Part shown: positions 7,865 to 47,508 of the stretch, one piece after another
How positions within the stretch are numbered: the first letter of the stretch is position 1
Layout: every line of letters starts with the position of its first letter
IMG/VR virus record: IMGVR_UViG_3300025846_000020
Coordinates: 1-47,802 of that record
Strand: one strand, 5' to 3'
Source of the DNA: a virus
DNA length: 47,802 nucleotides
Notes under the pieces: generated by a model
What the model saw: only the letters and a program-made list of their open reading frames with translations
The model's database searches: none
Told to the model about the DNA's origin: nothing
Made by a program: the position numbers and the translations under genes

Positions 7865-8049
7865 GCGCCATTGTCTACGCCTGCCCGCACAACGGCGAGC
7901 GCCTGCCCTGCCCGACGTGTGGTGTGCCGTTCCCCCATCGTCGCGAAGAGCTGGCCAACTGGCGCAAGCCGTCCACGTGTGAGACGCACGGCGTACGCCT
8001 GAGCCCCATGCTCAGCACGGTCGCCCAAGTACTCCGGGCGGTGGCCTGA
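7861..8049 (+). CDS. 62-residue zinc-finger-like protein
   Basis: It starts at the ATG overlapping the previous stop. YACPHNGERLPCPTC and STCETHGVRL supply C/H ligands in the spacing of a small zinc finger. The last base is shared with the portal gene start (TGATG), so it is coupled to portal expression. Confidence 0.6.
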   Translation: MSAIVYACPHNGERLPCPTCGVPFPHRREELANWRKPSTCETHGVRLSPMLSTVAQVLRAVA

Positions 8050-9587
8050 TGGGCCTGATGGAGATGATCGCCCGGGCGATGGGCGCCACCCCTCGTCTCG
8101 TTGAGGGCGTTACTATCCCTTCTGGTGACTACGTTGACTCGGATGAGGCCCTGTGGCGTCCGATCACGGGCAACAAGCGCCGCGACCTGAACCCGATCGA
8201 GTTTGACAAGGCGCGCCGGATCAGCACCTATCTCTGGCGTCGTAACCCGATGGCGCATCGGCTGATCGAGCAGATGGCTGACTTCATTGTGGGCGACGGC
8301 TTCACGCTGACCGCCGACACGGACGCGGGCCAGCGTATCGCCGATGATGTCTGGGCCGACCCCGTCACGAACTTGAAGGATCGCCACCGCGACCTCTTCC
8401 GCGACCTCTCGATCTTTGGCGAACTCGCCGCGCGGGTGTCGGTCAACCCGGTCGCTGGGCGAATGCGCCTGGGCTTCATCGATGTTGAGCGCATCCACCA
8501 CGTCGACCTCGATCCCGAGAACGTTCTGATCGACAAGACGCTGTTCGTCATCGAGGGGACGAACGTCGAGCCGATCCCGATCCCGCTCTATGTCTGGGAC
8601 GACATGACGACCCCGGGCGAGGGCCAGTGGGTCGGCGAGGGTTTCTACCACGCGATCAACAGGTTGACCGGGCAGACCCGCGGGACGCCCGACCTGCTGG
8701 CGATCGCCGATTACGTCGACGGGTATGACCAGCTCGTGTTCAACGCGCTGGAGCGGAGCAGCTTGGTAAACGCGTTCATCTACGAAGTGACCCTCGAGGG
8801 CGCAGATGACTCGCAGATCGCCGCGTGGTTGAGCAAGAATGGCACGGCCCCCCGCCCGGGCAGCATCCGGGCGCACAACGCCTCGGAAAAGTGGGGCGTC
8901 GTCGAGCCGGCCCTGGGCTCGGCTGACACGGTCGCGCTCGGGCGCATCGTCAAAAATATGGGGTTGGGCGGCGCAGGAGTCCCGGAGGCATGGTTCGCGG
9001 AGGGTGATTCGGTCAACCGGGCTACCCTCGTTGCCCAGGGCGACCCGACGTACCGGATGCTCAAAGCCCGCCAGGACCTGTGCCAGGGGTACGTCCGACG
9101 GTGGGTCGAGGTCGGGATCCAGCACGCCCGGGGCAAGCGCCTCAGCATGAGCGCCGCCGTCCCCAAGATCAGCGTCGGTGTCCCGGATATCAGTCAGAAG
9201 GACCTCAGCGGTGTGAGCCAGGCTTTGCCGCAGGTTGCTACCGCGATCGTCTCGGCCGTCGCCGAGCAGTTGATCGATCGCAAGTCCGGCCGCAAGGTAT
9301 TCTTGATGGTTGCCAGCCAGCTCGGCGTCGAGCTGAACGAGCAGGACGTCGAGAAGGCGATCGAAGAGGATCAGGCACAGGCGAAAGCCGAGGCCGAGGC
9401 CACGAACGTCGAGCAGGCGCTTCGCGCCGCCGCCGGGCTCACGCCCGAAGGCTTCCCGAAGCCGCCGGTTCCCCTTGCCCTTCGCCCCTACGCCGGCCAG
9501 GCTCCGGGCGCTGTCCCGAAGCCGGGCGCCGTGCCCGGAGTCCAGTCCGGCGGCCCCGTGCAGCCCGAGCAGGTAGTCACCGCCTGA
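8049..9587 (+). CDS. portal protein
   Basis: This 512-residue protein follows terminase in the standard order and has the size and features of phage portals. These include an N-terminal segment with RRISTYLWRRNPMAHRLIEQ and a hydrophobic FIVGDGFTL strand, and a middle region with the conserved NALERSSLVNAF-type helix and IVKNMGLGGAGVPEAWF. The helical clip/crown region and Ala/Pro-rich C-terminus come last. Twelve copies would form the vertex through which DNA passes. It overlaps the previous stop by one base. Confidence 0.88.
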   Translation: MGLMEMIARAMGATPRLVEGVTIPSGDYVDSDEALWRPITGNKRRDLNPIEFDKARRISTYLWRRNPMAHRLIEQMADFIVGDGFTLTADTDAGQRIADDVWADPVTNLKDRHRDLFRDLSIFGELAARVSVNPVAGRMRLGFIDVERIHHVDLDPENVLIDKTLFVIEGTNVEPIPIPLYVWDDMTTPGEGQWVGEGFYHAINRLTGQTRGTPDLLAIADYVDGYDQLVFNALERSSLVNAFIYEVTLEGADDSQIAAWLSKNGTAPRPGSIRAHNASEKWGVVEPALGSADTVALGRIVKNMGLGGAGVPEAWFAEGDSVNRATLVAQGDPTYRMLKARQDLCQGYVRRWVEVGIQHARGKRLSMSAAVPKISVGVPDISQKDLSGVSQALPQVATAIVSAVAEQLIDRKSGRKVFLMVASQLGVELNEQDVEKAIEEDQAQAKAEAEATNVEQALRAAAGLTPEGFPKPPVPLALRPYAGQAPGAVPKPGAVPGVQSGGPVQPEQVVTA

Positions 9588-9622
9588 GGCCTCCGATTGT
9601 GGATAACTTCCGCCGAAAACAC

Positions 9623-9651
9623 TTGACATTCTCTACGCTAGGGTGTATAGT
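9623..9651 (+). promoter_or_regulatory. strong sigma-70-type promoter after the portal gene
   Basis: TTGACA (9623-9628), 17-base spacer, TATAGT (9646-9651). This is the best consensus promoter in the structural region. Transcription should begin near 9658, right at the first base of the hairpin described next. Confidence 0.8.
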
Positions 9652-9658
9652 GTAACTA

Positions 9659-9818
9659 TCAGATGGAGAAAGGTACCGAGAGAGCTCCAATCCCCTCCAT
9701 CTGACACCAAGACACTGCTACCGTTTGTCCCTTAGTGGCTTGCGAGTCCCGGCACTTGATCCGGGTCGGCAGTGTTGATAACAGACCGGCGGGGCGCCTA
9801 CCAGATAGGACCCGCCGG
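9659..9818 (+). ncRNA. structured leader or small RNA upstream of the HTH gene
   Basis: Three separate stem structures follow the promoter. TCAGATGGAG (9659-9668) pairs with CTCCATCTGA (9695-9704). ACACTGC (9712-9718) pairs with GCAGTGT (9769-9775), enclosing CCCGG/CCGGG (9748-9752, 9761-9765). CCGGCGGG (9786-9793) pairs with CCCGCCGG (9811-9818), enclosing CCTA/TAGG. There is no credible coding frame before 9843. It may be a cis-acting leader or a separate RNA; no known family is recognised. Confidence 0.5.
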
Positions 9819-9842
9819 ATCTCGTTGCCGAGGGTGTGCCCG

Positions 9843-9998
9843 ATGACCCTGATTGAAGCGGCGGCGCTCCTCGGAGTGACCGCCGCGACTCTGCGCCAGC
9901 AGATCGCCAACGGGAAGCTGAAGGCGACGAAGCGGGGGCGCGATTGGTGGGTGACGCGCCGCGAGGTCGAGCGGTATCGCGTGGAGTCGCGACGCTGA
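9843..9998 (+). CDS. small MerR/excisionase-type HTH protein
   Basis: This 51-residue protein is almost entirely one helix-turn-helix: LIEAAALLGVTAATLRQQIA, then the wing WWVTRREVERYRV. This is the HTH_17/excisionase pattern. GAGGG lies 8 bases before the ATG; the frame is open further upstream but that would run through the structured leader. It has its own promoter and terminator, so it forms an independent unit inside the head genes. It may be a recombination directionality factor or a regulator; the sequence cannot decide. Confidence 0.78.
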   Translation: MTLIEAAALLGVTAATLRQQIANGKLKATKRGRDWWVTRREVERYRVESRR

Positions 9999-10023
9999 TC
10001 CCCCCACCCACTCGCCGCCTACG

Positions 10024-10053
10024 AAGGCCCCGGCACTGTCCGGGGCCTTTCCA
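10024..10053 (+). terminator. rho-independent terminator
   Basis: AAGGCCCCGG (10024-10033) pairs with CCGGGGCCTT (10040-10049) around a 6-base loop, followed by TTTCC. It closes the 9623-9998 unit just before the MuF-like gene. Confidence 0.85.
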
Positions 10054-10072: not shown

Positions 10073-10987
10073 GTGCCTGATCCCATCAGTGCTGCGCGTG
10101 AGGCGGCCATCCGGCAGGCGTACAAGCTGGAGCACCAGCTCTACCAACTTGGGAACACGAGCTTGGCGGAGATCAAGGCCGAGCTCGAGGTGACCCGCCG
10201 GTCCGTGCTGTCGATCCTCGCGACCGCAACCAAGGACTGGCAGATTTCCCAGGCCCAGAGCTTGCTGGACGAGATCGAGCGCCAAATCAAGGCGTGGGGC
10301 GCGTTCTCTACAAGTGCGATCGGGAGCCGTTTCCCGACCGTGGCGGATATCGGCGTGGAGCAGATGACCGCCGCCCTGAAAGCGGGCGGTACGAGTCTGT
10401 CGATCGGCGCCGGCCCGATGCTTTCGCGGGCCTTCATTGCCGTGGCCTACCAGAGCCTGCCGCTCATGATCACGGATATCAGCACCGAGGCGACGTCCAA
10501 GATCGGGCGCATCCTGCGTCAGGCCGTGCTCGCCCAACGCACCCCGTTCGATGCCATGCAGGAGATCGGCACGATCACGGGCAAGGGCGTGTTCGGTTCC
10601 GCGCTCGTGCGCGGCGAGACGATCCTGCGAACCGAATACGGGCGCATCGCCCAGACTGCCAACCACGCCGCGCTGTCGGACGTCGCCCAAGATAACCCGA
10701 CGCTCCACAAGGAATGGAGCGCGATCATCGACGGGCGCACCCGGCCCACCCATGCCAAAGCCGATGGCCAGATCCGCGACGTCGACAAGCCATACGACCT
10801 TGGCGGGTATCCCGGCCTCTACCCCCACGATCCGCAGTTGCCCGCCGAGGAGTCCATCAACTGCCGATGTATCAGCGTCGCGCAGGATGCGAGCTGGCCC
10901 GACGATCGCACCAAGAGCACGCAGGTCCCCGAGGGCGCAACTTCTCTTGACATCGCACCTGCCCCAGACGTATCCTCAGCCCCATGA
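10073..10987 (+). CDS. MuF-like head morphogenesis protein
   Basis: This protein of about 304 residues lies after the portal, the usual place for minor head/MuF-type proteins. The long N-terminal half is helical. The C-terminal domain has FGSALVRGETILRTEYGR, then HKEWSAIIDGRTRPTHAKAD and EESINCRCIS, the classic MuF signature. GAGGAG lies 6 bases before the GTG at 10073, which is therefore preferred to longer openings that would cross the terminator. These proteins are packaged or sit at the portal and help head assembly. Stop overlaps the next ATG. Confidence 0.88.
   Translation: MPDPISAAREAAIRQAYKLEHQLYQLGNTSLAEIKAELEVTRRSVLSILATATKDWQISQAQSLLDEIERQIKAWGAFSTSAIGSRFPTVADIGVEQMTAALKAGGTSLSIGAGPMLSRAFIAVAYQSLPLMITDISTEATSKIGRILRQAVLAQRTPFDAMQEIGTITGKGVFGSALVRGETILRTEYGRIAQTANHAALSDVAQDNPTLHKEWSAIIDGRTRPTHAKADGQIRDVDKPYDLGGYPGLYPHDPQLPAEESINCRCISVAQDASWPDDRTKSTQVPEGATSLDIAPAPDVSSAP
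10947..10976 (+). promoter_or_regulatory. promoter inside the end of the MuF-like gene
   Basis: TTGACA (10947-10952), 18-base spacer, TATCCT (10971-10976). The predicted start of RNA, near 10983, falls at the ATG of the next small gene, which has no ribosome site, so that transcript could be leaderless. Confidence 0.5.
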
Positions 10988-11112
10988 CTAAGGGAACCAT
11001 CCCCCCCGGCCAGTGGTCCCCGAAGGGCGCCCGTATCGACAAGACGGGCAAGCTCGTCATGCCTAAAGCTCCGGTCAAGGTCAGGGTCATTCGCTTAGGC
11101 CCTCGCGGGTAG
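10984..11112 (+). CDS. 42-residue basic peptide
   Basis: ATG overlaps the MuF-like stop. The peptide is basic and proline-rich (GTIPPGQWSPKGARIDKTGK, then KVRVIRLGPRG) with no membrane segment. A terminator-like hairpin follows at once. The overlap plus a promoter immediately upstream support it, but its shortness keeps confidence moderate. Function unknown. Confidence 0.5.
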   Translation: MTKGTIPPGQWSPKGARIDKTGKLVMPKAPVKVRVIRLGPRG

Positions 11113-11132
11113 CCCGCCGTACCGGCGTTTGT

Positions 11133-11165
11133 ACCGGCGTTTCCTTGGGGCGCCGGTTTCTCTAT
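11133..11165 (+). terminator. terminator-like hairpin
   Basis: ACCGGCG (11133-11139) pairs with CGCCGGT (11151-11157), followed by TTCTCTAT. GTACCGGCGTTT also occurs as a direct repeat just upstream (11119-11130 and 11131-11142). Confidence 0.6.
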
Positions 11166-15775: not shown

Positions 15776-16204
15776 ATGGCTGCCGGCCCCTGGGTCTTCG
15801 TCAATGGTGCACGATCCGACATCCTAGATGCCGGACAGCACATCGATTCCGACTCGTACAAGATGTCGCTCCACACGAGCGCATCGAACCTTACCGTGGC
15901 ATCCACGACGTTCGCCGGTGTGACCAACGAGGTCGGCGTCACCAACACCGGCTACACCGCCGGTGGCACCGCGGTCGCGATGACCAAGAGCGGCACGACG
16001 ACGGTCACCGCCGTCATGACCACCGCCCCTGTCTGGACGGCTGGTACAGCCAACCTCACCGCCAAGTGGGCCGCGATCTACAAGGTCGCCGGTAACGTCG
16101 TCGCGTTTGCCCTGCTCGACTCGGGCGGCGCGGACGTGACTGCTACCTCCGGGAACACTCTGACCGTTGGCAGCAACGGCGGAACGGTGTTTACCCTAGC
16201 TTAG
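15776..16204 (+). CDS. structural protein after capsid (decoration/head fibre type)
   Basis: This 142-residue, Thr/Val/Ala-rich beta protein has the pattern SDSYKMSLHTSASNL, then TNTGYTAGGTAVAM and a closing GNTLTVGSNGGTVFTLA. I know this pattern from small phage structural proteins encoded near the capsid gene. It probably decorates the head or forms a fibre. There is no good ribosome site before the ATG, only GATAAAAC. The position after capsid supports a virion role. Confidence 0.62.
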   Translation: MAAGPWVFVNGARSDILDAGQHIDSDSYKMSLHTSASNLTVASTTFAGVTNEVGVTNTGYTAGGTAVAMTKSGTTTVTAVMTTAPVWTAGTANLTAKWAAIYKVAGNVVAFALLDSGGADVTATSGNTLTVGSNGGTVFTLA

Positions 16205-16217
16205 AGGGGCGTAACCG

Positions 16218-30718: not shown

Positions 30719-31240
30719 TTGAGCAAGACGTTGAAAACGCGCGCCACCCGCCTTACGGATCTGCGTCTTGCCGACAGGCTGCGCGAGGACGATCTGCGCG
30801 CGGCGGAGACCCGGCGTCTCAATGATATTCGCCGCATAACTCGTAGGGCCGAACACCGGGCGATCAAGGCAGAAGCGCGTCGCATTGATGCGTTGATGCT
30901 TTCGGAGTCCCGGCGGATCGACGCGAACCGCGCGGCAGACGTGGCGGCCGTTGCGCTTGCGAGTGCGCGAGCCGAGATGACTGCATCCAACTTGGCCGAG
31001 CGCGTGGACTCGACCGCAAATGCAGCCAGCGCCGAAGGGGAAGCCCTGGCGAAGACGAACGCCGCCGCCGTGACGGCCGCCGCCATGACGACCGATCAGC
31101 GTATCTCTCCCCTTGAAAAGTCGCGGTACGAGCAGGCGGGCCGCGGCGATCTCGCTGGCCCGCTCCAGATGGCGTTTGCGGCCCTTGTCGGCGGACTCGC
31201 TATCTGGGTTATCCAACAGCTCCTGGCGGCGAGCGCATGA
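30719..31240 (+). CDS. charged coiled-coil protein with C-terminal membrane anchor
   Basis: This protein of about 173 residues starts at TTG 30719. Arg/Glu/Asp/Ala-rich helices (REDDLRAAETRRLNDIRRIT, then EARRIDALMLSESRRIDANR) run for over 100 residues, followed by one C-terminal membrane segment LQMAFAALVGGLAIWVIQQL. A tail-anchored coiled coil next to the peptidase and holins suggests a membrane or lysis accessory role. The stop overlaps an ATG of the next frame. Confidence 0.6.
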   Translation: MSKTLKTRATRLTDLRLADRLREDDLRAAETRRLNDIRRITRRAEHRAIKAEARRIDALMLSESRRIDANRAADVAAVALASARAEMTASNLAERVDSTANAASAEGEALAKTNAAAVTAAAMTTDQRISPLEKSRYEQAGRGDLAGPLQMAFAALVGGLAIWVIQQLLAASA

Positions 31241-31275
31241 GTTCCAAGCACAAAGCTCGGAGAGGAGCTAAACCG

Positions 31276-32217
31276 ATGATCGATACACTTGAGTTCGGCC
31301 TCGGAGCTGTACAGAGTCCGCCCGATGTTCGGGACTGGCCGATCTCGTCCCTCTTCGCCACTGTCGGCGTTGAAGCGGCGGTTACGATCCCGGCCTCGTT
31401 CGTGGTCCCTGCACCGCTCCCGCCGGTCCTGAACCAGGGCAACACGCCGATGTGTGCTGCGTATTCGACCGCGTGCCTCAAGGGGTACGAGGATCGGATC
31501 GATCAGGGCCAGTTTTACAACTTCGACAAGCCGACGTTTTTCCGTGCCATCGGCGGCGGAGTGAACGGTGCGATCCTCCGGGATGCGTTCGCCCGGATGC
31601 TGGGGACCGGCTATCCGGTCGTCAGTGCAGGGCAGGCCGGGAGCCACAAGATCAAGGCGTACTACGCCGTCCCTCGGACGAAACTCGACATTCAGCAGGC
31701 GATCCTCGCCTTCGGTCCGCTCGTCCTCGGGATGAACTGGTACGGCTCGTGGTTCCATCCGGTCAACGGGGTCCTCCCCGAGCCGTCCGGTGGGATTGTG
31801 GGCGGCCATGCGATCGCCGCGATCGGCTGGGACAGCCGCGGCCTCCACCTCCGAAACTCGTGGGGAGCCAGCTGGGGCATCGGAGGCGACTGCTTTATTC
31901 CCTGGTCCTACGCGCTGGCCGCGTGGGAAGTCTGGAAGGCGATTGACGTCATCGAGACCGCTCCGGTGTCGACCCACAAGGTCCTCATTGAAGCGAACAC
32001 CGTGGTCCTGTTCGCGCAGATTAGCGGGGCGTGTATCTCCGGGTGGACCCGATATCCCTGGGGGCCATCCGCAAGCTCGGCATCCTGTGGCGCGCCGTAC
32101 ATTCTCCCCGGGTGCTCGAACGGTCAGGCGACGGTCGTCAGTATCACGTCTACAACTGGACCCTTCGCCGGGAAGGTCGTCCGGGTCGGATCCGGTGTCA
32201 CGGTCACGGCCATTTGA
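31276..32217 (+). CDS. papain-like (C1A) cysteine peptidase
   Basis: Catalytic elements are complete: the oxyanion Gln and nucleophile Cys in LNQGNTPMCAAYST (Q54, C60), the His in GGHAIAAIGWD (H178) and the Asn in LRNSWGASWG (N194). The C-terminal 80 residues form a Cys-containing extension. GAGGAG lies 8 bases before the ATG at 31276; an ATG at 31237 overlapping the previous stop would add 13 residues. Papain-type enzymes are rare in phages. The place before the holins suggests a lytic role or cleavage of host wall peptides, but this is inference. Confidence 0.8.
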   Translation: MIDTLEFGLGAVQSPPDVRDWPISSLFATVGVEAAVTIPASFVVPAPLPPVLNQGNTPMCAAYSTACLKGYEDRIDQGQFYNFDKPTFFRAIGGGVNGAILRDAFARMLGTGYPVVSAGQAGSHKIKAYYAVPRTKLDIQQAILAFGPLVLGMNWYGSWFHPVNGVLPEPSGGIVGGHAIAAIGWDSRGLHLRNSWGASWGIGGDCFIPWSYALAAWEVWKAIDVIETAPVSTHKVLIEANTVVLFAQISGACISGWTRYPWGPSASSASCGAPYILPGCSNGQATVVSITSTTGPFAGKVVRVGSGVTVTAI

Positions 32218-45242: not shown

Positions 45243-45550
45243 CCCCGATCGAGGCGCACGACGAGGTGATCGCCCGGGATGATATCTGCTTCCTGTTCCG
45301 CATCCAAGCCGGTCACGTTTGCCGGGACGCCTGGGGCAATCGGCATGAGCCGTCCGACCGCGAGCGGCTGACCGTCGACCGCGTCAAGGAGCACCCGCGC
45401 ATGGGCGTCGGGGAGTCTCACCGCGATCCGACGCACCTGATCGCCATGTGCTATGCGGGCAACGTCGGTGGGCCGTCTCGGGAAGTGCGGGCCGCCGAGC
45501 GCGCGTACCTCGCGCGCCTGTACCCAGACACCTGGGAGGTGGCGGCGTGA
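45239..45550 (+). CDS. degenerate HNH-type protein
   Basis: This 103-residue protein has the frame of a small phage HNH endonuclease: DEVIARDDICFLFRIQAGHV, CRDAWG, then LTVDRVKEHPRMG and HLIAMCYAGNVGG. In active relatives the DR is DH and the final part is C-x2-HN; here the first His is Arg and the second is Ala-Gly-Asn. It is therefore probably a catalytically dead or altered HNH protein that may still bind DNA. Overlaps its neighbours by 4 bases. Confidence 0.6.
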   Translation: MTPIEAHDEVIARDDICFLFRIQAGHVCRDAWGNRHEPSDRERLTVDRVKEHPRMGVGESHRDPTHLIAMCYAGNVGGPSREVRAAERAYLARLYPDTWEVAA

Positions 45551-46245
45551 CGCCCTACTACTCCGACGACCTCGTGACGATCTACCACGGAGATTGCCGG
45601 GAGTGGATGCCCGAGGCCGACGTGATCGTGACGGACCCGCCGTACTCATCGGGCGGCTTCCAAGAGGCCGGTAAGTCGTCGGGCAGCATCGGGAAGATGG
45701 GCGCGGCGACGAAGGACGACCGCATCGGTTACGACACGCTTTCGACTCGTGGGTACATGAACCTCATGCGCGAAGTCCTGCGAAGCGCGCGGAGCGTAGA
45801 CGAGATTGCCGTATTCACGGATTGGCGGATGTGGGTCAATACCGCCGACTCGCTCGAATACGCCGGGTACATGCTCAGGGCGATGATCGTGTGGTCGAAG
45901 GGCAACAACGGCATCGGGCGGCCGTGGCGCAACCAGCACGAACTTATCGCCTACGGGATGCGCCGACCTGCCAACAAAGATCGCATCGCCAAGCACGGAA
46001 ACGTGATCGACTGTGCCCGTAGCGGGAATGTGAACCACCCGACGGAGAAGCCCGTCGAGTTATTGCGGAAGGTCATCGACAACATGCTCGGCGCCGTATT
46101 GCTCGACCCCTTTATGGGCTCCGGCTCGACCCTCGTCGCCGCGAAGTCCCTCGGTCGCCGCGCCATCGGCATCGAGATCGAAGAGAAGTGGTGCGAGACC
46201 GCCGCCAACCGCTGCCGGCAGGAAGTCCTAGGGCTCGCCGCATGA
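45547..46245 (+). CDS. second DNA methyltransferase (N4/N6 amino type)
   Basis: This 232-residue protein starts with a GTG overlapping the previous stop. VIVTDPPYSSGG (DPPY at 30-33) is the catalytic motif. The C-terminal NHPTEKPVELLRKVI and DPFMGSGSTLVAA form the SAM site, again the beta order. The whole enzyme is present, unlike the split one at the window ends. It probably modifies phage DNA at a different site. Specificity cannot be read from sequence. Confidence 0.88.
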   Translation: MTPYYSDDLVTIYHGDCREWMPEADVIVTDPPYSSGGFQEAGKSSGSIGKMGAATKDDRIGYDTLSTRGYMNLMREVLRSARSVDEIAVFTDWRMWVNTADSLEYAGYMLRAMIVWSKGNNGIGRPWRNQHELIAYGMRRPANKDRIAKHGNVIDCARSGNVNHPTEKPVELLRKVIDNMLGAVLLDPFMGSGSTLVAAKSLGRRAIGIEIEEKWCETAANRCRQEVLGLAA

Positions 46246-46299: not shown

Positions 46300-47508
46300 T
46301 CAGGCTGGAGGACTCACCCATTCTGGCACCAGCCATTCCGCGGCAACGGGCCGCATGTCCCCGTCTATTTGAACCGAACCCCATATCATCCGGAGTGCCC
46401 GGTTTACCTCTTGCGGCTCGCGATCCCAACTCACTGCCGGGACCAACCTCACCTGTCCCTGGAGATCGAGCCGCATGAGAGCGTCGTCGACCTCCGCTTT
46501 CTCGGCCATCATCGTCGGTTCGTCCTGGTACAAGCCGGCGATCCATGCAACCCGGATGCGGTCCAGTTGAGCCCGGAGCGCCGCCTGCTCCGCCACTGTG
46601 CTCTCGGCCAGGGCCACCTTGTCTTTCGGCGGTCGAAGCCGCAGGGCCTCGCGTATCGCCCATTCAAGGACGCGGCTCTCGGGGACGGTCGTCGTACCGT
46701 GGAGCGTGTCCAGCCTGCCCCGGGTGCAGCGATAACTGACGTAGCCCACCATCCTCCCGGACGCGCGGCGCCAGCCGGTCATGGTGCGCCCGCAGTGGCA
46801 GCGCAGCAACCTGTAGAACAAGAAGGGCGCCGCCTTCTTGGCGCCCCGCGGCTGACCGACCGGGAGCAGTTGCGGGGCCACGCGCCGCAGGATCACAGAG
46901 ACAGCGCTCGGGTACCAGACGGCGTTGCCGTTCCGGGTCCGAACGCCCCGCGCCGTCAAAAGCCTTGCTGCTCCCGTGCAGGAGCCCGCTTCCTCGTATG
47001 CCTCGATGACGAGCGGGTGCTCGAGGAACACCGGGGCCCCCATTACGTCACCGCGGGCCCGGCGGACCTCCACCGCGTCGAGCGCTCGCTCCGAAGCCAG
47101 GTCGGCCTCGAGCTGGGCCATGACGCCGAGCAGGGCCAGGATCGCCCGGCCGGTCGCAGTCGTGGGATCCGGGTCAGTGTCCCGCGCCAGCCGGATAGCG
47201 ACGCCCTGGACCCTGCACAGCTCGGCCAGGGCCATGATGTCACGGACCGACCGGGAGAGTCGGCTGAGGCTGTACGAGTAGACGGCCGACACCTCCCCGG
47301 CTTCGATCGCGGAGAGCAGGGCATCGAAACCCGGACGCTCGCGTCTCCCCTTGCGCCCGCTCCTGTTCAGGTCGGTGAGCACGATGAGATCGCGGTCGCC
47401 GAACGCCTCCGCGTACTGGGTGGCCGCCGCGAGCTGCATCTCGGGGCTGACGATCTCCTGGTCGCGATAGACCCGCGACTTTCTCAGATACGCGTAGGCG
47501 CGCCTCAC
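46300..47508 (-). CDS. int: serine integrase (large serine recombinase)
   Basis: This 402-residue protein has the catalytic domain AYLRKSRVY with Ser11, then SLSRLSRSVRDI carrying the active-site arginines, and ILALLGVMAQLEADLASERA of the long helix E. A recombinase domain follows, then a zinc ribbon (LLRCHCGRTM and SYRC) and a short coiled coil (EQAALRAQLDRIRVAWIAGL). It is short for the family but complete in order. It starts with GTG 6 bases after a TAGAGT box (47520-47515), so the mRNA may be leaderless. It integrates the phage at attP/attB. Confidence 0.92.
   Translation of the reverse strand: MRRAYAYLRKSRVYRDQEIVSPEMQLAAATQYAEAFGDRDLIVLTDLNRSGRKGRRERPGFDALLSAIEAGEVSAVYSYSLSRLSRSVRDIMALAELCRVQGVAIRLARDTDPDPTTATGRAILALLGVMAQLEADLASERALDAVEVRRARGDVMGAPVFLEHPLVIEAYEEAGSCTGAARLLTARGVRTRNGNAVWYPSAVSVILRRVAPQLLPVGQPRGAKKAAPFLFYRLLRCHCGRTMTGWRRASGRMVGYVSYRCTRGRLDTLHGTTTVPESRVLEWAIREALRLRPPKDKVALAESTVAEQAALRAQLDRIRVAWIAGLYQDEPTMMAEKAEVDDALMRLDLQGQVRLVPAVSWDREPQEVNRALRMIWGSVQIDGDMRPVAAEWLVPEWVSPPA

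Follow-up and report, generated by a model that had tools for sequence, protein, structure and literature searches.

What purpose could be served by a small DNA-binding protein gene, with a promoter of its own and 185 nt of apparently structured sequence in front of it, placed between two head genes of a phage? The case comes from a 47.8-kb IMG/VR virus record of an uncultivated phage, analysed over its whole length of 47,802 nt (the window). Here, 485 nt separate the portal gene (8049–9587) from the MuF gene, which most likely starts at a GTG at 10073 and ends at 10987. Within this interval lie, in order, a promoter, 185 nt without a credible open reading frame (ORF), a gene for a helix-turn-helix (HTH) protein of 51 residues and a 10-bp hairpin, forming a small cassette that is co-directional with the head genes (Table 1).

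Table 1. Features of the cassette between the portal and MuF genes, in window coordinates.
Feature	Position	Strand	Remarks
DnaA-box-like 9-mer, TGTGGATAA	9598–9606	+	16 bp upstream of the -35
Promoter, TTGACA-17-TATAGT	9623–9651	+	TTGACA 9623–9628, TATAGT 9646–9651; sigma-70 score 11/12; same type in nearly all relatives
Operator-like inverted repeat, TCTACGCTAGGGTGTA	9632–9647	+	in the spacer and -10; right arm degenerate, 5/8 pairs (7/8 in most close relatives)
Payload slot, candidate structured RNA with three hairpins	9658–9842	+	no credible ORF; predicted RNA start near 9658
Hairpin 1, TCAGATGGAG/CTCCATCTGA	9659–9704	+	10 perfect pairs; z -4.0; at the predicted RNA start
Hairpin 2, branched	about 9711–9776	+	z -1.4
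Hairpin 3, CCGGCGGG/CCCGCCGG core	about 9783–9822	+	z -3.8
HTH_17 (Xis/MerR-like) gene, 51 aa, likely autorepressor	9843–9998	+	ATG 9843, stop 9996–9998; GAGG at 9830–9833
GC-rich hairpin, terminator-like	10024–10049	+	10-bp stem, loop of 6, -20 kcal/mol, z -3.9; tail TTTCCATG, poor U-tract

A sequence-only reading of the window had placed a TTGACA-17-TATAGT promoter, a 51-residue excisionase-type HTH gene with its own ribosome site and a terminator between the portal and MuF genes. The flanking genes and the promoter were confirmed; only two sites scoring at least 9/12 occur in 10 kb (shuffled sequence, 0.9 ± 1.1). The HTH gene was likewise borne out, with a GAGG upstream and matches to Pfam HTH_17 (E = 2e-10) and to the NCBIfam profile ‘excise’ (TIGR01764, E = 2e-9). 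Its fold is of the Xis family, the closest solved relative being Pukovnik Gp37 (Xis; PDB ID: 4J2N). The terminator held in part: the 10-bp stem is real, but its tail has no good U-tract, and the terminator scan passed over it for this reason. Among 30 non-redundant cassettes (the set used for the operator and HTH comparison and for the payload counts), only that of the window has a perfect stem of at least seven pairs no further than 100 nt from the HTH stop codon. Such a hairpin would make sense if transcription running on into MuF has to be kept low.

The cassette recurs well beyond this phage. We found relatives of the HTH protein (57–91% identical) in about 20 viral contigs, mostly unrelated, and more distant relatives at 71 loci; the contigs that carry it have little else in common with the window. 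In these relatives, the HTH gene is the last gene of a cassette that is often inserted among structural genes. Where the surroundings can be read, the cassette is mostly antisense to its neighbours, and those identified are head or tail genes. An empty site was sought through relatives of the portal, MuF and TerL proteins, which proved too distant; in Microcystis phage Mae-JY22 (portal 36% identical), the portal gene and its successor overlap and the cassette is absent. In genome collections, the HTH protein was found in one Thermomicrobiales metagenome-assembled genome (MAG) and, at E ≤ 1e-10, in 10 of the 177 genomes of the class to which this MAG belongs, the one class searched. We treat these matches as a lead only to the host class, the phages possibly being those of Chloroflexota.

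Nearly all relatives share the same type of promoter upstream of the HTH gene, in which the spacer between TTGACA and the -10 element holds a 16-bp inverted repeat (TCTACGCTAGSGTAGA), and several have a second copy of the operator (TACGCTAGGGTA) abutting the -35. When contigs were searched in two scans by promoter pattern, ignoring the HTH, 17 were recovered, of which 16 carry the HTH gene; the remaining one (L131) ends about 88 bp past the promoter. The left half-site of the window operator is true to its class, and the right arm reads GGGTGTA against an expected GGGTAGA. Its -10, TATAGT, is better than GATAGT. Together, the degenerate arm and the improved -10 predict weaker repression and stronger expression in this phage. 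A further operator-like site in the window, at 16192–16205 on the minus strand, lies at a gene junction with no promoter and was set aside. In a 64-kb phage contig (G017, loci L049–L052), the TCTACGCTAGCGTAGA operator occurs about 15 times across the genome, in the manner of the stoperators of a genome-wide repressor, and one promoter-pattern match lies far from its HTH gene; the regulator may thus be wider in reach than an autorepressor.

Many of these promoters also carry a DnaA-box-like 9-mer. A match of at least 8/9 lies within 60 bp in 12 of the 30 cassette promoters (chance, 0.46% each), and in 11 of these 12 it is placed 16–17 bp upstream of the -35, far above chance. Carriers of TGTGGATAA or an 8/9 version include the window, L060, L062, L063, L069, L073, L079, L089, L094, L098 and L103. 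The element might couple expression to DnaA, or serve as an upstream promoter element.

Operator and protein change together. Across the 30 cassettes, proteins with the recognition helix TLRQQ mostly go with TCTACGC half-sites, those with TLRHQ or TLRSQ with GCGTGTA, and those with NLRGA mostly with CTTACGC. HTH distance correlates with operator distance (Mantel r = 0.54, p = 2e-4), the covarying changes being the outer bases of the operator and the helix expected to read them. This pattern of sequence change fits autorepression as in Aca proteins, with linked descent of operator and protein contributing. The pairing of helix and operator classes amounts to a binding code, directly testable, for a putative repressor of 51 residues.

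What lies between promoter and HTH gene is variable. One or more payload ORFs, usually of 60–100 codons, occupy the slot in 27 of the 30 cassettes; the payload stop and the HTH start typically share bases, as ATGA or GTGA. In a Pfam scan of eight payloads, most had no family match and one resembled a C5 cytosine methylase. The cassettes of two contigs (G003 and G004) occupy the same place, between the portal and major capsid genes and on the opposite strand; their portal (73%), capsid (68%) and HTH (89%) proteins are similar and the promoter regions align, whereas neither DNA nor protein comparison detects any similarity between their payloads. The same site, promoter and HTH gene with unrelated payloads indicate that the payload has been exchanged. 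Besides the window, just one cassette (L086, 2770–3000) has a clearly non-coding payload: 230 nt with stops in all frames, predicted to fold compactly, with a closing stem of 10 bp (MFE -95.9, z -2.7). It has no Rfam match and no recognisable kinship to the window payload, and we regard it as a candidate new structured RNA. L103 has a short hairpin payload, though this stretch may alternatively code for additional N-terminal residues of the HTH protein. The HTH-coupled payload ORF of L070/L071 (G011) resembles a C5 cytosine DNA methylase, with a possible anti-restriction function.

In the window, the slot offers no ORF longer than 23 codons outside the HTH frame, and none of its frames resembles a payload of the relatives. 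An N-terminally extended HTH protein starting at GTG 9735 was rejected, there being no ribosome site. All three stems noted in the sequence-only reading exist, but the overall fold is not by itself beyond chance in this genome. The whole 185–191 nt folds with a moderate z of -2.9 or -2.5 against shuffled sequence, the antisense strand gives nearly the same value (-2.3), and z ≤ -2.88 is found for 41 of 794 windows (about 5%) along this GC-rich genome. The GC content falls to 0.535 in 9600–9799. The earlier failure to recognise a known RNA family also stood, Rfam giving no match at the gathering score and only chance-level ones at E ≤ 10. Single-sequence covariance models of the window leader (R1) and of the L086 payload (R2) recovered only themselves and chance-level matches, and the stem-3 pattern was not found in viral contigs. 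No homologue of the 185-nt sequence was found that could show covariation. ARAGORN found no tRNA in the tRNA-like hairpin 2, and this candidate was dropped. The leader is complementary to other parts of the window only over stretches of 10–15 nt. Positions 9807–9836 match rpoA in antisense in many genomes; a control segment from the portal gene matched equally well, and we discount this as background.

From these results, we consider it highly probable that the locus is an autoregulated cassette with exchangeable cargo. Its strong promoter would be read by the host RNA polymerase, and the Xis/MerR-like HTH protein, encoded last, would bind the inverted repeat between the -35 and -10 and damp the cassette. 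The stretch from promoter to HTH gene would be the cargo slot, usually filled by a short protein gene whose stop overlaps the HTH start. For the window phage, we lean slightly towards a cassette of this kind whose cargo is a structured non-coding RNA, which would form the 5' part of the HTH message. Three observations lead to this reading: the slot lacks an ORF, a hairpin stands where the RNA is predicted to start, and L086 offers a comparable payload. Since 27 of the 30 cassettes hold a protein ORF in the slot and the window holds none, an RNA that acts on its own is the payload reading that we prefer, and it is a possible one. By analogy, the cargo probably aids the phage in the early phase of infection or in the prophage state, for instance by countering host defence. 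In favour of the model are the recurrence of the cassette, the conserved promoter and operator, the payload exchange, the covariation of operator and HTH protein and the absent ORF in the window; against it count the modest fold and its antisense equal, an RNA with no homologue, the degenerate right arm, the single parallel non-coding payload, a covariation that linked descent could produce as well and the many operators of G017.

The same autoregulated cassette might instead express the HTH protein as its sole product, the 185 nt being left over from a payload gene that was lost or frameshifted, or an inert spacer, with hairpins incidental to GC-rich DNA. We find this somewhat unlikely. It would suit the presence of a protein in the slot of most relatives, the roughly 5% of genome windows that reach the same fold score and the equal antisense fold; yet the frames are unlike the payload of any relative, a perfect 10-bp stem stands exactly at the predicted RNA start, the local GC content is lowered to 0.535, and L086 offers another folded non-coding payload. 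That the 185 nt are a cis-acting leader for HTH translation or termination, riboswitch- or attenuator-like, is improbable. In a fold of the leader alone, ACACC and GGUGU form a 5-bp helix at the ribosome site of the HTH gene, but this is lost in the longer fold that takes in the coding sequence, where the start region finds its partner inside the HTH gene, the three hairpins remain separate and sequestration of the ribosome site disappears. Rfam contains no match to the leader, and the relatives govern the HTH gene by overlap with the payload ORF instead. Control of the HTH protein by its leader RNA, as the sequence-only reading had suggested, is thus unsupported.

The window RNA might instead be an RNA anti-CRISPR (Racr), a mimic of the CRISPR repeats of the host. 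Solitary repeat units are often preceded by a predicted promoter, and an acr gene can be part of the same operon (PMC10651486); the cassette has an acr-aca-like architecture, is counter-defence-like and would make a small structured phage RNA (predicted here) from its own promoter. Unlike a solitary repeat unit, the RNA spans about 185 nt with three hairpins, and no similarity to CRISPR repeats was detected. Array-like matches were found in none of the 177 genomes of the suspected host class, the host itself being uncertain, and leader matches in these genomes were no better than those of a control segment; we judge this reading very improbable. We give still less credence to the HTH protein being a phage excisionase, or recombination directionality factor (RDF), acting at attP. 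Its profile matches and its likeness in fold family and size to HTH_17/winged-helix phage excisionases such as mycobacteriophage Pukovnik Xis (PDB ID: 4J2N) would agree with such a role. However, HTH proteins 84–88% identical to it lie beside tyrosine integrases (G002 and G013), whereas the window has a serine recombinase, so that it is not paired with one integrase system. RDF sites are typically direct repeats (PMC7498355), whereas the site linked to the HTH protein lies in the promoter of its own cassette and is an inverted repeat. With mixed integrase types and a predicted site inside its own promoter, the binding at attP that had been envisaged finds no support, and a dedicated excisionase role is unlikely.

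Ordinary phage morons are extra genes with their own promoter and terminator inside a late operon. The cassette resembles them in position and self-contained transcription signals, its terminator-like hairpin having no good U-tract, and the recurrence of promoter, payload and HTH gene as a unit in unrelated phages supports the earlier suggestion of a moron or regulatory cassette. It differs in that unrelated phages have a conserved regulator and operator in common but exchanged payloads. A closer parallel is the acr-aca operon, whose Aca proteins repress by way of inverted repeats of the core promoter, a second copy being present in some cases (PMC9410906, PMC8434428). Shared with it are a strong promoter of the sigma-70 type that contains one or two inverted repeats, one or more short and variable genes at the front, an HTH gene in the operon, the moron position and spread among unrelated phages (PMC9410906, PMC8434428). 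The cassette inverted repeat is a 16-bp element in the spacer, degenerate in the window, and the HTH gene follows small variable gene(s) in the relatives but no small gene in the window, where the cargo slot has no ORF. The cassette HTH protein is also Xis/MerR-like (HTH_17) and of 51 residues. We propose that the autoregulated cassette works like an acr-aca operon, a likeness in architecture that does not imply membership. More tentatively, such cassettes may form a new family of Aca-like cargo cassettes in uncultivated phages, defined by an Xis-like HTH protein and a TCTACGCTAGCGTAGA-type operator and carrying small proteins or unrelated structured non-coding RNAs as interchangeable anti-defence cargo. 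If the proposed model is right, HTH gene and operator would provide a search handle, for a phage group with no cultured model, and the small proteins or RNAs between them would be candidate counter-defence or host-modifying factors; interchangeable RNA cargo would widen the use of non-coding RNA by phages beyond CRISPR-repeat mimics.

Several other features of the window deserve mention. The serine recombinase gene (46300–47508, minus strand) suggests a temperate phage. Two N6/N4 DNA methylase genes (39–1115 and 45448–46245) lie near the two ends of the record, and a gene for a papain-family (Peptidase_C1) protein is found at 31237–32217, in the tail-fibre/lysis region. Directly after MuF, there is a promoter-like site (TTGACA-18-TATCCT, 10/12), a basic ORF of 42 residues (10984–11112) and a terminator-like hairpin with 11 pairs (11133–11157); this unit, at 10947–11157, is possibly a second small moron.
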